Assembly (NCBI GenBank): GCA_025602915.1
Contig: JAHLJZ010000033.1
Span: 124,001 to 188,000 of the forward strand
DNA length: 64,000 nt
Origin: Paraphysoderma sedebokerense
Taxonomy: Eukaryota; Blastocladiomycota; Physodermatomycetes; Physodermatales; Physodermataceae
Direction of reading: 5' to 3'
Both the position numbers and the translations under genes were made by a program. Below the pieces are notes generated by a model. The model saw only the letters and a list, made by a program, of their open reading frames with translations, made no database searches and was not told the origin of the DNA. Every line of letters starts with the position of its first letter. The stretch's first letter is position 1. Positions 8,383-17,172 of the stretch are shown one piece after another.

Positions 8383-11300
8383 ATGAAAGTATTCATTTCT
8401 GACCTCGACACTCCTGTCGGTCACAATCTATCCCGAATCCTATCATCCACTCTCGTCGGTTCTCGTCGTCAAAAAGATGACTCAGATGATTACACCTCAA
8501 ACGAAGACGGAAATTCACCCACTAAGAAGTCGCATTCCTATTATGAAATAGCTGGTACCCTATTCCACTCGGCCAACCCTGATGCTGAGGTGCCTCCTGA
8601 GTTGGAAGTCGATGGCATGGATCCGGCGGGGAAGAACAAGGAAATTAGGGAGTTGATGGATAAGAGGAGTAAAAAAGGCAAAGCCGGGAGTTGGGTTAAG
8701 GAAGTGATCCCGGTAAGTTCTGAAGTATTCAAGCATATTATGAACGAATGAGGGGCTACTCGGACCTGGATGCTTTTGAAATTTCAAACAACTTCCGATG
8801 AAATCTGACGCATACAATTGTCCGCAGAAAAACGATACAGAGAAAATTAAGCAGCAAATACTAGAATCAGATGTCGTAGTGTTTGATTTACTCCACAGCG
8901 TCTCTCAAGCAAACTGGGCCTTTGAAACTGGTATGAGAAAATGTTTTGAATTCACCTTGCCTATCCATCATGATTTACCCCGTTTATATCCGGATCACAG
9001 TGTTGCCAGAGAACATTGGGATGTTCGTGGATAAGCCAAAGATTGTGATCGCTATTTCTAGTATCATGACATGGGCTAAAACGAAGCCAGATCCGGTAAT
9101 TGTCCTTTCATCTTTCCGCCACTTGCGCAATATGTGCATCCTGCTTACGCTTACTGATTTACTCTACATAGGCTGATCCAGATGCACCATTTCTTGAGGA
9201 AGATTATCGCAAACGGCGAACGCATCCAAACTTTCGAGATCATCTGGCTGCGGAAAAAGCATTGAACAAATTGGGCAAAACAGATGCGTTCAAGACTTAT
9301 GTTGTTTCTTCTGGATTATGCTATCATCATGGAGACAGCGTTATACATCACATGTTGCAGGTACCAAAATTTAATTTCATCACCATTACTCTTGATCCTT
9401 AATGATAATTTTATCTAGAGTGCATGGTCAGGACAACCAGAACTTCCTATATATGGTGATGGGGATAACTTTTTGCCAATGATTCACTTGGACGATTTAT
9501 GTTCTATATTGTTGCAAGCTATCGAGACCACGCCTGACTTTAGATATATTGTGGCAATCGATGACGCTAAGCACACGTATTTAGAAGTAGCAACGGTACG
9601 TCCATTACTTCGGGTTATGACATACTACATACTGTCGATAACATTTTCTGCCATTACGCGAAAACCAACGATTTCCTGTGCGTTGAATCAACCACCTGTA
9701 GGCTATTTCCGAACTCCTTGGGACAGGCAAGGTCAAACTGATGCCCAAAGAGCAAGCGTTGCTACGTAAAGATTTTACTCAAACGGACTATGATATGTTG
9801 ACATTAAACCTGAGGCTAGAAGTGAGCAATGCTAAGAAATTGGGTGTGGAATGGAAGTCGGAGGTACGCACTCTGCAGTCTATTCGTTCAGATAACATTC
9901 TTAACTCCTCGAGACCCATGTATCGGCTCTGCAATTGTTCAAACAGGCTGGAATTATTGAGAATCTGCCAGCTCTTATCCGTCAATACAAAGAAGGCCGC
10001 GGGCTCACCCCATTAAAGATCATGATTCATGGACCGCCTGCCAGTGGGAAGACTACAATCGCGAAAATGATTGCTGAATATTATCAACTTCATTTCGTCG
10101 ATCCCGAGGTTGTAGTTAAAGAGGCAATCGATCGCTTGGTACATTTAATTTCCTTGTATTGGTTGTCTTTGGGTCAAATTGCGGAACTAATAATTTAATA
10201 AAGGAACGGCGAGTTCACCCACCCCCCCTCGGCCCTGATTCCACAGATGTTCAATCAGTCGAAGATACCGAACCAGTAGAGGAGGCTGAAAAGGAATTGC
10301 TAGAGGAGTTGCAGGAAGCTCTAAAAAATAATAACGGTGTATACCCAAAAGATTATGTCATCAGTTTTCTGAAAGCCAAGTTAAATACTATGCCATGTCT
10401 GAATCAGGGTTACGCACTAGATGGATATCCGACAACCTTAGATGAGGCATCGGCATTGTTCAAAGGTACTTATCGTTAAGACGTTTAGTCCTATTACTTG
10501 ATTCTCTCAAAGATAACGAAAACTGACACAAATAATATGCGTTATCTCAAACAGCTGAGGGCGATAGTGGCGTTCAGAATACAGAATCCTATATTCCCGA
10601 ATTTATCATATCTCTTGAGGCGTCTGACGACTTCATCAAGGATCGAATTATGAAACTTCCAGAATCAGAAGTAGAAGGGACCAAAAATTCGGAAGAAGGT
10701 AATTCGATGAATACTTATCACTCATTTCATAATTTGACACAATAACAATTGGAATCCCTCACACCTTACAGCATTGTTAAAAAGACTTGAAGAATATCGC
10801 GCCAAATCAACTGAGGAGGCAATCGTGCTGAATTTCTTTGACGAACTCGAAATTCACCCTCACTCTATTGACATAGAATCCGTATTAAGAGCTGGTAACG
10901 ATACCTCGACGACAGGCGGGTATGATGGGATTAACACAAAGGGACTAAATGCCAATCAATTGAATGAGAGGGTGTTGGAACGCATTAAGAAGTTTGTGGG
11001 GAAACCGCATAATTATGGACTTTCAGAAGAGGAAATTATCAAAAGGAAGAAAACGAGAGATTTAGAGAAGGTATTCATTTTATTTCCTTCAAGTAGACGC
11101 ATATGTTCGTCCATGGAATTCCGTCGATTTATTAAATTACATCTGATTGCCATAGGCTAAAACAGCAGAAGCAGCTCGTGAGGCGCAAGAAAGACTTGAG
11201 GCTGAAGAAATGGAACGACAAAATAAAGTCATGGAGGAATGGGTTCGTAATAAACGCTCCTCACTCTTGCATCATTCTTCAATTTGTAACATGACCCTTC

Positions 11301-11588: not shown

Positions 11589-12184
11589 TGTACTTTTGAT
11601 TAATCAATCATAATGACACTTGCAGCAGTTAGGAGAACAATGTACATATATCGATTTGATTTGAAATAAATGAAAGTAACGAATCGAGACAGACGGATGA
11701 ATATGATTGTCACTGCACCGGAATGTTTGGAAATCGCTCTGTTTAGAGCCACCATCAGTAATTAATTATCACTCAAATCGCTTGTATAGGTTTTAGTGCC
11801 CCATGCATGCGACATATTACATCGAGCGGATTGTCCCATCCTCAATTTCAAACAAGCTTGACAATTTGCAATGTATATTTTGCCGATGCTTTCCGTGGCG
11901 GAAGCGACATTATGGTTATTACAACTGATTGTCTTTTCTTCCGTTGCCCTGTATTCGCGTAATTTGACTTGTGGATAAATTTCGTTCCGCCAATTTGGCA
12001 ATTTAGTGCAATTTGGAGCCGTGCCAACGAACAGATCCGATATCTAATAATGCGGAAACGGATTAGGAGCACACTACCATCTTTCTACCGATTAAAGAAT
12101 ATAAAAGGGGCCACATCGCTCGACAGAAAAACTTAAATTGACCTACAAATAGTCTTTCTTCGTATTAAGAATACAGAAAATCAA
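11589..12184 (+). promoter_or_regulatory. Upstream region of first 2H gene, duplicated at 13230-13715
   Basis: Past the AK7 3' end, roughly 11760-12184 resembles 13300-13715 block by block: a CATGCATG core, ACAACTGATTGTCT, TTCCGCC (about 11985), TGCGGAAACGGATT (about 12051), and a TATA-like ATAAAAGG at about 12101, some 85 bases before the ATG. The promoter was therefore copied with the gene. No gene is supported here. Confidence 0.65.
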
Positions 12185-12926
12185 ATGTCTTCAATTATAC
12201 TTGCTCTCCTCGCCATTCAATTTACCGCTACCGTCTTCAATCCATCCGGGTTATTAGTGAACGCCGTTCCCTCCCGTGGTGTTTTCTCCGTTAAAGACGA
12301 AATTTTTCAAACCCAGAAAGTGAGATTTCTTAACACCAATCCTTACTTGTCGTTACGTGTGCCTTTTAAGCCCGTCGAAGAATTATTTAATGAAGTTCAG
12401 AAAAGTAATTTTCATGTGCCTGGAAGAAATTTGAAGAACAGCGGTGAAGGTAAATTTTTATTCATGTTACAATTATTGAAAAAGTAGAGTGTTGAATCCT
12501 AACAATCTATTTTTCTTTTTTCTTATGTGTATAGCTCATATAACAGTCATTTCTCGGTCCGAATACAGACGATTACAACCTATTATTTCCATTTCGGAAA
12601 TTAACAAAATCGCCGAATCCAGTAAAATTCAATCTACCCCTTTCACTATTAAGTGTCTTGGACGGAGCCTATCCTTTGCCTCTGACCCATCCGGACCCGC
12701 AGCCGAATCGGTTTACCTCATCATCGATGCGCCAGGATTAACCGCGATTCGACAAAAAGTTTGGCAGGAGTACGTAAAGAGAGGTGGAAAGCAAGATGAC
12801 TTCAAGTGGGACCAGTACTATCCGCACTTGACTGTCGGATACAGCCCTAAAGATTTGCATTTCGAAGAGGGGCTCAAAAAAGATGAGGCAATTTGTGCGG
12901 CCAGAGTCGATGTTGTTAAATCTTAG
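12185..12926 (+). CDS. Secreted 2H-phosphoesterase-like protein, copy 1
   Basis: Exons 12185-12449 and 12535-12926; 218 aa. The hydrophobic N-terminus (MSSIILALLAIQFTATVF) looks like a signal peptide. Two HxT motifs about 100 residues apart, AHITVIS (around residue 90, right at the exon junction) and YPHLTVGYSP near the C-terminus, are the signature of the 2H phosphoesterase superfamily (2'-5' RNA ligase/cyclic phosphodiesterase fold), whose members open 2',3'-cyclic phosphates or cleave 2'-5' bonds. Between them are a predicted core strand, IKCLGRSLSF, and a long helix (RQKVWQEYVKRGG). The substrate cannot be read from sequence. A near-identical architecture is repeated at 13716. An extracellular or ER location is inferred from the leader only. 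Confidence 0.75.
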
Positions 12927-13715
12927 ATGTCGATGAGTTTGTATGTGTTGTATCGATTATATATTTTTGTAGTAAATTTAGAATCATAGAAGTATATACG
13001 GAAAAAAAATCATTTCGGACGTGGTCTTGATAAATGAAAGATAGATGTAAACAAAAGTAGTTGAATACACAAGAATGTGAATACAATAGATTCATTTAAA
13101 TTAAAAGTGTAATGCCGTCATGCTTCACAAATAGCGGAGACCTTTCTTTTCTAACCTGTGATATCCTGCCGCAGGAAGCTCATTTTAAGATCCAAAAGCG
13201 TGAATTGCTCAGATACCAAGTATTCCGGTGGTCGCCGTTGTAGTAGTGTGGCCCAAATATATTACGAATGCATTATTTTTGTACTGGGAACAATTCAGGA
13301 CAAATATTATCGATGGGACAAATCACTTAGCCTTTAGAGCCGCATGCATGCTAATGTCAGATCGAACAATATTGTCGCATCCAATCTTTTGTAGTAGTTT
13401 GGCAATACTTATCATTGGTTTACCGACACTTTCCGTTGGCAGACACTACAACTGATTGTCTCAGCAGGGCGGTGCGGCCGGATCGTCCGACTTCGACGTG
13501 GAAAATTGTGTTCCGCCTGTTTAACAATTTAGCGCCATGAGAGACGTTCCAACGAAGGGATCCGAAATCTGATAAGTGCGGAAACGGATTGGGAACACAC
13601 AGACAGCGCAGTCTGCAGTTGAGAGTTATAAAATTATGAATCGCCTCCTCTGACAGACATTAGAACGCAAAACATTAGAAAGGACTCAAATACAGGCAGC
13701 CAAAAAACCCGAAGA
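12927..13715 (+). promoter_or_regulatory. Intergenic region and duplicated promoter of second 2H gene
   Basis: The 3' UTR of copy 1 comes first, then the second promoter copy. Conserved with the first: CATGCATG, ACAACTGATTGTCT, TTCCGCC at about 13511, GTGCGGAAACGGATT at about 13576, and a TTATAAAA box at about 13626, 90 bases before the ATG. Spacing of these blocks is retained between the two copies. No other gene is supported. Confidence 0.6.
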
Positions 13716-14462
13716 ATGTCGTTCGTAATACTCGCTATCCTCGTTATCCATTTTACCGCAACAATTTTCAATCCATCAGGAATTTCGGTCGGTGCTGTTC
13801 CATCTAGGGCTGTTTTTAATGTCAGAGATGAGATTTTTCAAACGCAAAAAGTTCCCTTCATCAGAAATGAAGCTTACTTGTCGATGAATATTCCTTACAA
13901 GCCTGTTAAAGAGCTATTCGATGACGTTCAGAAAAGTAATCTTCATGTACCTGGAAGAAATTTACTCAACCGTGATGAAGGTACCGTATTGCTTTCTCAT
14001 CTATTTCTGATTTAGTTTCGTATGTCCGCAACATTGCCTTTAACAACTTCTGTCCTCTTGGCTTCCTATAGCTCATATAACCGTGATTACGCCCCCGAAT
14101 ATAAGCGTCTACAAAAGTTTATTTCAATGTCAGAAATTAATAACATCGCTGATACCAAAAAGATCCAATCTACTCCTTTCACTATTAAATGTATTGGACG
14201 TAGCTTAGCTTTTATTTCTGGGCCGTCAGAACCGGCCGCTGAAACTGTTTACCTAATTGTAGACGCACCAGCTTTGAAAACAATTCGAGAAAAAGTTTGG
14301 CAAGAATTTGTGAAGCGAGGTGGAAAGCCAGATGACTTCAAGTGGGATCAGTATTGGCCTCATGTGACTGTTGGATTTAACCCTCGAGATTTGCACCTTG
14401 CAGATGGGGCGATTAAAGATGAAAGAAGTTGCGCTGCTAGAATCGAAGTAATTAAATCTTAG
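13716..14462 (+). CDS. Secreted 2H-phosphoesterase-like protein, copy 2 (frame broken as read)
   Basis: Tandem paralogue of 12185-12926 with the same intron position: exons 13716-13980 and about 14072-14462. The leader (MSFVILAILVIHFTATIF), the VPGRN segment and the second motif WPHVTVGFNP are all kept. Splicing at the conserved site gives AHITVIT, but from there the frame differs by one base from the downstream EYKRLQ frame. The stretch from the HIT codon to the EY codons is 23 nt here and 24 in copy 1, and it contains a run of five C. So either one base is missing in the assembly or the copy has lost function. The two exons sum to one base short of whole codons. I found no alternative acceptor that restores both motif and frame. 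Confidence 0.6.
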
Positions 14463-14933: not shown

Positions 14934-17172
14934 ATGTTGCTTCATCGCCTACTTAAATCCTCTGCTCGAAGAACCGTCTCCTCCTCCTTTCAGTCCATCT
15001 CGAGACAATCTCAACCTCTACCATCTTTCACCCTCCCTCGATTCATCAGCAACACCACTCCATCACGATACGCTACCGAATCAACCGATGATATACTCAA
15101 ACAAGAACGGTTCGTGGACAACGCTGACGTTTTAATTGTCGGTGGTGGTCCCGCGGGATTGTCTGCCGCTATCAAACTCAAGCAATTAGCGAATAAAAAT
15201 GGAAAGGATATGAGAGTTTTAGTCGTTGAAAAAGGAGCTGAAGTCGGAGCTCATATGTTGTCTGGTAATGTCTTGGAACCAAGGGCTCTGAACGAATTGA
15301 TTCCCGATTGGAAAGACAAAGGGGTAAATTATTCAATTTAGCGCTGGACGCCAATTTTCTTTTCTCTTATTAGAAATACAAATCAAAGTCACCTATCATA
15401 TCATTATTAATGTTATGCTTTTCTTTGTTCTCTTTGATATCCGTTTGTGTCTATGGTTACGTAACAGGCGCCACTTCATACACCAGCACTCAAAGACGCA
15501 ATGTACTATCTGACCAAAAATTCAGCTATTCCCCTTCCTCATCCACCTCAGATGAACAACAAAGGAAACTACATTATTTCTCTTTCCCAATTCGTTCGAT
15601 GGCTTGGTGAACAAGCTGAAGAATTGGGTGTCGAAATCTACCCTGGAATCGCCGGGGCCGAAGTGCTTTACAATGAATCTGGCGCTGTAGTGGGAGTAGC
15701 TACAAATGATGTTGGAATAGGGAAAGATGGAAAGCCCACCGACAACTTCGAACGCGGCATGGCAATTAAAGCCCCAGTGACACTATTCGCCGAAGGTTGT
15801 CACGGTTCATTGACGAAGACGCTCATCAGAAAGTTTGACTTGCGAAAAGGAAAGTCCCATCAAACCTATGCGATTGGATTGAAAGAAGTGTGGGAAGTAC
15901 CAGAGGATAAGCACGATATGGGATTAGTTCATCACTCTATTGGTTGGCCGATGGATTACAAAACTTATGGTGGAAGCTTCATGTATCACTGGACGGACCA
16001 GCCTGAAAATGGAAAGAAATTAGTCAGTGTTGGTTATGTCGTCGCCTTGGATTACTGGAATACGTATATGAGGCCGTATATGGAATTTCAGGTACGTATA
16101 TTTATTAGCCGTTCTTGGTCTGAGAGAGGGCAGGTATTAAACTTGGACATCTGATTTTAACAGCGATTCAAACATCACCCTGAGATTAAGAGATATCTCG
16201 AAGGTGGAAAATGTTTACAATACGGCGCTCGCGCTCTAAATGAGGGTGGATACCAGGTGAGTGGGTTGTCAGCTTATTAATAGTCTGGATGCAAATTTTG
16301 ACCGACGTAAATAGTCGATTCCTCAGCTCGTGTTCCCTGGCGGCGCTCTCATCGGTTGTACTGCTGGTTTCCTTAATGTTCCTAAAATTAAAGGAACGCA
16401 CACCGCCATGAAGTCTGGTATTTTAGCTGCTGAATCCGCATTCGCTGCGATTGAAGCCAACCCGCAAGAAATCCCTGAAGGTGGAACGCCTAAACCACTT
16501 GATATCACCCCATACGAATCAGCACTTCATAACTCTTGGGTTGCTGAAGAACTCAAGGAAGTTCGAAATTGCCGTCCGTCATTCCACACCAAACTCGGTT
16601 TATGGGGCGGCGTCGCTTACTCCGGATTGGAAACCATGATACTTAAAGGCAAAGGACCATGGACTTTTGATCATCCAGTGAAAGATTACGAATCATTGCT
16701 ACCTAAGGAAAAATGTCCCCAGATCGAGTACCCTAAACCTGATGGAGTAATTAGTTTTGAATTGTTGGATAATTTAGCCAGAAGCGGAACCAATCATAAT
16801 CACGATCAACCAGCTCATTTGAAACCTAGAGATCCCGAGATGCAAGTTCGAGTCAATTTAGATGTTTGGGATGGCCCTGAACAGAGATTCTGTCCCGGTA
16901 CGTTTCGTTTGAGTTTCGCATTATTTCGTTATGCCACCGAGTCCGCCTAATTTGTCTCTTCCTATATTCTTTCGCTTATAGCTGGTGTATACGAATATGT
17001 CGAGGTCGATCAGCCATATACATTATCCAACGGAAAGACAACAACGAAGAAATTTCAAATTAACGCACAAAACTGTGTTCATTGTAAAACATGTGATATC
17101 AAAGATCCTAGCCAGAATATTGATTGGACCGTCCCAGAGGGTAGCGGAGGGCCTAGTTACACTTTGACTTAA
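14934..17172 (+). CDS. ETFDH: Electron-transfer flavoprotein-ubiquinone oxidoreductase
   Basis: Exons 14934-15323, 15468-16091, 16164-16256, 16315-16897 and 16982-17172; 626 aa against 617 in human. The N-terminus is Ser/Arg-rich with few acids ([19 protein letters not shown]), a mitochondrial leader. The FAD-binding motif is [14 protein letters not shown]. Family blocks follow: [73 protein letters not shown]. The C-terminal 4Fe-4S ligands are intact: FCPAGVYE with [13 protein letters not shown]. The enzyme passes electrons from ETF (fatty-acid and amino-acid dehydrogenases) to ubiquinone at the inner membrane. The matching ACAD fusion lies 3 kb downstream. Confidence 0.97.

Follow-up and report, generated by a model that had tools for sequence, protein, structure and literature searches.

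The tandem genes and the proteins they encode

The window analyzed here, a stretch of 64,000 nucleotides (positions 124001-188000 of contig 33, in an assembly totaling 27.3 Mb) from Paraphysoderma sedebokerense, described as a blastocladiomycete pathogen of the green alga Haematococcus, was found to harbor two tandem genes for proteins of the 2H-SAK (Swiss Army Knife) family, each with a leader of the export type (Table 1). The span proposed in a first-pass annotation, made by a model from the sequence alone, proved exact, as it runs from the start codon of copy 1 at position 12185 to the end of the copy 2 stop codon at position 14462. The predicted 218-residue protein of copy 1 is identical to NCBI entry BKA69DRAFT_1125459 of the same species. 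What is probably new is that a parasite of algae keeps two adjacent genes for a probably exported single-domain 2H-SAK, likely of bacterial origin. Neither an exported 2H-SAK nor any 2H-SAK in Paraphysoderma turned up among the literature titles and abstract openings listed, and the main text of PMC9123766 has no occurrence of words beginning with "secret", of effector or of ribonuclease.

Table 1. Features of the two 2H-SAK genes, in positions of the window.
Feature	Position	Strand	Remarks
Copy 1, whole gene	12185-12926	+	two exons, 218 amino acids
Copy 1, exon 1 (88 codons + 1 base)	12185..12449	+	translation equals P0001 / BKA69DRAFT_1125459
Copy 1, intron, GT-AG, 85 nt	12450..12534	+	splice agrees with P0001
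Copy 1, exon 2	12535..12926	+	agrees with P0001
Copy 1, leader, residues 1-27	12185..12265	+	hydropathy 2.41, cleavage-like site between V-N-A and V
Copy 1, first HxT, H90-I-T92	12537..12545	+	sequence
Copy 1, Cys129, candidate disulfide partner	12654..12656	+	alignment
Copy 1, second HxT, H186-L-T188	12825..12833	+	sequence
Copy 1, Cys209, candidate disulfide partner	12894..12896	+	alignment
Copy 1, upstream region similar to that of copy 2	11755..12151	+	local score 227; GCGGAAACGGATT at 12052-12064
Copy 2, whole gene	13716-14462	+	exon layout as in copy 1
Copy 2, exon 1, leader at 13716-13796	13716..13980	+	translation, hydropathy
Copy 2, intron, GT-AG, 91 nt, position as in copy 1	13981..14071	+	junction agrees with P0002
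Copy 2, exon 2, frame broken soon after first HxT	14072..14462	+	this assembly
Copy 2, first HxT	14074..14082	+	sequence
Copy 2, second HxT, frame unlike that of first HxT in this assembly	14361..14369	+	sequence
Copy 2, upstream region similar to that of copy 1	13295..13692	+	local score 227; the same 13-mer at 13578-13590

Copy 1 matched Pfam PF22547 (2H-SAK) at 71 bits, with a gathering cut-off of 27, over positions 2-124 of the 124 in the profile, and the exon 2 frame of copy 2 alone reached 48.1 bits. Two His-x-Thr (HxT) motifs, H90xT92 and H186xT188, are present both in copy 1, where they lie 96 residues apart, and in P0002, an intact counterpart of copy 2 described below. Confident structure models show a two-lobed 2H fold in which strands 90-94 and 186-192, positioned as expected, carry the HxT residues, with low confidence at residues 11-30 of copy 1, and a search started from the copy 1 model returned mostly 2H enzymes as structural neighbors. 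A viral fold library gave 440 matches, 5 of them at E ≤0.001, and those carrying names were phage or giant-virus 2H proteins. The pair accordingly belongs to the 2H-SAK family and is predicted to have the 2H fold, in line with the 2H-phosphoesterase-like character first read from the motifs. The accompanying remark, that no described fungal family with this layout was recognized, does not hold in the sense of an undescribed family, as the family is 2H-SAK and UniRef already names the bacterial relatives P0054 and P0114 "Swiss Army Knife 2H ...".

No non-2H Pfam domain was identified in the 218 residues of copy 1, nor was a canonical SAK partner domain such as PTP-SAK. The Acb1 profile (PF23474) gave 15.3 bits, under its cut-off of 27; NCBIfam had no match for the fungal proteins, and the PDB yielded only chance-level interleukin matches by sequence search (E 0.47 and worse) and none by profile search. 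The SAK name derives from multi-domain proteins, and while the fungal protein shares with PF22547 the sequence family, both HxT motifs and the fold, it has just one domain, preceded by a leader of the export type. Relatives were aligned in 206 rows, made up of 70 rows extracted from genomic loci and 136 database proteins. Both HxT motifs are unchanged in 206 of 206 rows, a count that is biased because the locus rows were chosen by the double-HxT pattern and the database proteins by their similarity to the query; every one of the 136 database proteins has both motifs.

Leader, probable export and the cysteine pair

The N-terminus of both copies is a hydrophobic core, after which a (-3,-1) site resembling a cleavage site is present at residue 27. 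The best 12-residue hydropathy is 2.41 in copy 1, most hydrophobic at residues 4-15, and 2.75 in copy 2. Among ATG-started open reading frames of at least 60 amino acids, a value of 2.41 or higher was reached by 19 out of 1105 in shuffled sequence, 15 of which also had a (-3,-1) site, and by 6 out of 122 in the window itself. Leaders were called by our own heuristic rules rather than by SignalP, with some start-site errors being scored as absence of a leader, and by these rules 107 of 118 relatives carry an export-type leader (109 of 120 when the fungal pair is included); a later count gave 118 of 134 proteins and, for proteins from named genomes, 63 of 70. The fungal leader aligns with the lipoboxes or Sec leaders of the bacterial relatives and stands directly before the one 2H-SAK domain, and the first residues downstream of it are similar to the mature N-termini of several of these relatives. 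Taken together, this supports export of the fungal protein, as the N-terminal signal-like segment had suggested from the start. The premise that went with it, namely that 2H enzymes act inside cells, overlooked the exported bacterial branch to which these leader-bearing relatives belong.

This branch is exemplified by four proteins of 198-213 amino acids, each a leader plus one domain with 36-40% identity to copy 1: P0121 (Bacteriovoracaceae), P0012 (Bdellovibrio sp. HCB337), P0114 (Peredibacter starrii) and P0054 (Candidatus Uabimicrobium amorphum). They keep the invariant residues of copy 1 and usually both of its conserved cysteines, of which P0054 has only the first. The differences lie in the leaders and the gene structure, as on the bacterial side lipoboxes or Sec leaders are combined with continuous open reading frames, whereas the fungal genes have a eukaryotic-type leader and an intron.

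The cysteines corresponding to Cys129 and Cys209 are both present in 178 of the aligned rows and both absent in 21, while the first occurs alone in 7 and the second alone in 0, a pattern that would suit a disulfide in an oxidizing compartment. A Fisher value for this pairing was not used, because it ignores kinship and each cysteine changes only twice on the tree. One sub-branch lacks both cysteines; it comprises loci L061, L062, L064, L073 and related ones, from Legionella, a Riflebacteria bin and some Bdellovibrionota.

Duplication, selection and the state of copy 2

The two copies have been under purifying selection. Nonsynonymous and synonymous divergence (dN/dS) between them was 0.224/1.78 in exon 1 (NG86), and 0.176/1.47 (NG86) or 0.191/1.27 (YN00) over the part of exon 2 that can be compared. 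With ratios of 0.12-0.15 and near-saturated silent sites, both copies have therefore long been maintained by selection. Approximately 400 upstream bases are alike between the copies (local score 227, whereas none of 60 shuffles exceeded 63), while introns and 3' flanks are no more similar than shuffled sequence. The conserved upstream region, the diverged introns and flanks and the near-saturated silent sites consequently indicate that the tandem duplication is old and that the promoter region has been conserved. The upstream region includes a 13-mer, GCGGAAACGGATT, which occurs at only two places in the genome, upstream of the two copies; within the window, the same two places were found when up to two mismatches were allowed. 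A regulon sharing this motif was considered and rejected, as the exact 13-mer precedes no other genes in the genome.

In this assembly, the two HxT motifs of copy 2 are in different reading frames, and no single protein with both is therefore encoded. The claim that both copies have two HxT motifs some 100 residues apart thus holds for copy 1 and for the DNA of copy 2, but not for the copy 2 frame, a break on which the first-pass reasoning was silent. However, an intact 218-residue protein, P0002, is found on two public contigs of at most 1002 bases each and differs from copy 2 at only 4 of the 209 residues that could be compared (2 of 88 and 2 of 121). Its open reading frame is intron-free and continues across the predicted splice junction of copy 2, which is best explained by a transcript; judging from these sequences, an intact copy 2 therefore exists, be it as an allele, a strain variant or a transcript, and is probably expressed. 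It is accordingly improbable that copy 2 is a pseudogene and that the locus holds a single working gene instead of a working pair: the broken frame would fit such a reading, but the near-identical P0002 on other contigs, the strong purifying selection in both exons and the otherwise open exon 2 all contradict it.

Bacterial contamination could be ruled out, and the locus is taken as fungal, because both copies are interrupted by a GT-AG intron at an identical position and the neighboring genes are eukaryotic. The upstream neighbor (window positions 9905-11160) is an adenylate-kinase-like P-loop gene, as indicated by weak matches, and the downstream neighbor (14934-17172) encodes an electron-transfer flavoprotein (ETF)-ubiquinone oxidoreductase.

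Relatives and probable origin

Protein searches, which reach only relatives that have short words in common, returned 20 proteins from the fungal pair alone, the pair included. Gorgonomyces haynaldii (Chytridiomycota) was the one named fungus among these besides the pair, and the other named ones were bacterial. A search with a three-sequence profile gave 566 matches, and among the best 120 of the 566 the named ones were bacterial except for the query. The Gorgonomyces protein (P0131, EDD86DRAFT_208704) carries the two HxT motifs as well as the two cysteines, and its listed start gives only a short, weak leader. Within the Paraphysoderma genome, neither profile nor protein search found further relatives, with the exception of a canonical SAK gene on contig 106 (L003, approximately 8684-8983 and downstream). 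This gene consists of a 2H-SAK exon (56.8 bits, also over the cut-off), weak sub-cut-off TPR matches and then a PTP-SAK phosphatase domain (97.4 bits).

A survey of Bacteria and Archaea, with one genome per species, gave 75 loci, 50 of which are Bdellovibrionota by title. The remainder include Legionella, a Coxiellaceae metagenome-assembled genome and Uabimicrobium, and also Ignavibacteria, Kapaibacterium, Elusimicrobia and a cyanobacterial bin; five of the 75, without a clear double HxT, were left out of the extraction. Matches above the cut-off were found in 44 of 191 sampled genomes in the phylum of a Bdellovibrio (two previously known ones included), in 6 of 185 in the class of Legionella (one previously known included) and in 1 of 199 in the phylum of Uabimicrobium, the previously known one. 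No conserved bacterial operon partner emerged, since beyond the query family, present at 71 of 75 loci, no neighbor cluster was found at more than 14 of 75.

Of the 206 rows, 103 were chosen for a quick tree, without the extracted loci L021, L049, L076, L082 and L083, and 68 for a careful one; no root was inferred. In the quick tree the fungal pair groups with the Bacteriovoracaceae protein P0121 with a Shimodaira-Hasegawa-like approximate likelihood ratio (SH-aLRT) of 93, while the careful tree gave this group a bootstrap of 95 but an SH-aLRT of 56 and left deep branches unresolved. Copy 1 has 36% identity to P0121 over 206 positions (120 bits), compared to 21% over 105 positions (24 bits) for the canonical, multi-domain SAK of its own genome, from which descent is thus unlikely. 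As the pair is closer to P0121 than to this SAK, and as its named relatives are bacterial except for one chytrid, its origin is best read as a transfer from bacteria, supported by sequence comparison. An ancient eukaryotic exported 2H-SAK, surviving in a few zoosporic fungi, would instead account for the relative in Gorgonomyces, a zoosporic fungus of another phylum, and a single fungal clade is not rejected by the approximately unbiased (AU) test (p-AU 0.45). We nevertheless hold such survival to be unlikely, given that the two fungi stand apart in the best trees and are grouped in 0% of 200 bootstrap trees, that bacterial diversity is far larger, and that only two named fungal species were retrieved among the matches considered, which for the profile search were the best 120 of 566.

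Proposed function

Known 2H enzymes work within cells, in RNA repair, in splicing and in conflicts between viruses and their hosts; T2- and A-type RNases leave 2',3'-cyclic ends. Our preferred reading, to which we give a probability of roughly 0.5, is that the pair encodes an exported 2H-SAK which came from bacteria, gained an intron, was tandemly duplicated and opens 2',3'-cyclic phosphates outside the cell. The fungus or an ancestor would have taken the gene from bacteria, probably of a kind living on other cells, and the acquired gene would have gained a spliceosomal intron and been duplicated in tandem, promoter included. The leader would be cleaved near residue 27 and the protein would fold in the secretory pathway, where a disulfide between Cys129 and Cys209 may stabilize it, and work outside the fungus or at the interface between parasite and host. 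There, His90 and His186 could serve as general acid and base, with the threonines holding the phosphate, in the opening of 2',3'-cyclic phosphates that derive from RNase-cut host RNA, be they carried by nucleotides or by RNA 3' ends, so that the products would become usable by phosphatases and transporters. Such roles of the histidines, with Ser/Thr aiding in substrate holding, are what is thought for 2H enzymes (PMC7026655), whose known activities include the opening of 2',3'-cyclic phosphates to 2'-phosphates (PMC5283653). In Bdellovibrio, prey RNA degradation has been described as starting early in predation, with prey RNA becoming negligible by 3-4 hours (PMC2797640). RNA ends or 2',3'-cyclic phosphate, as first suggested, remain plausible substrates, while we infer export of the fungal protein, the disulfide, the cyclic-phosphodiesterase activity, the nutritional role and the direction of transfer. 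No measured activity was found for any member of the family, and the feeding step finds no support in any widely conserved bacterial neighbor at the 75 loci.

Among known enzymes, the LigT/ThpR and CNPase-type 2',3'-cyclic phosphodiesterases are intracellular and have only approximately 10-15% identity to the fungal protein, which does not keep Arg130 of LigT. The periplasmic 2',3'-cyclic phosphodiesterase CpdB resembles it in the proposed job, acting on cyclic nucleotides outside the cytoplasm, but has a fold unrelated to 2H. A third comparison is the anti-CBASS 2H nuclease Acb1, a phage protein acting inside the host cell. By analogy with Acb1 or viral 2H phosphodiesterases, the secreted protein might meet or enter the algal host and destroy 2',3'-cAMP/cGMP or a cyclic dinucleotide, thereby removing a signal rather than feeding the fungus. 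This seems quite unlikely, as the Acb1 profile stays under its cut-off, the closest relatives come from bacteria, for which this setting does not apply, nothing points to host-cell entry and no host signal was seen in any analysis. Less likely still is the healing of extracellular RNA ends, or self-protection in the secretory pathway or wall, with no part in feeding. The 2H-SAK domain is named after RNA-repair proteins and a canonical SAK with a PTP-SAK domain exists in the same genome, but the pair lacks a partner domain and is distant from that SAK, and repair enzymes would be expected where RNA works, not outside.

A broader and more tentative proposal, which we consider doubtful, is that exported 2H-SAK is a common tool of cell consumers for dismantling the cyclic phosphates of prey RNA, and that the fungus got its gene from one of them. 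Bdellovibrionota are predatory and Uabimicrobium engulfs prey; together with Legionella/Coxiellaceae and the alga-parasitic fungus, they would use the enzyme outside their own cytoplasm, either for food or to silence a prey signal. The loci in Ignavibacteria, Kapaibacterium, Elusimicrobia and a cyanobacterial bin, which are not known as predators, speak against this.

The exported branch, commonest here in Bdellovibrionota, contrasts with the 2H enzymes known from inside cells. The Paraphysoderma pair offers an easily expressed candidate for how such organisms may handle the 2',3'-cyclic phosphates of digested prey RNA, as well as a clear test case for gene transfer from bacteria to fungi.
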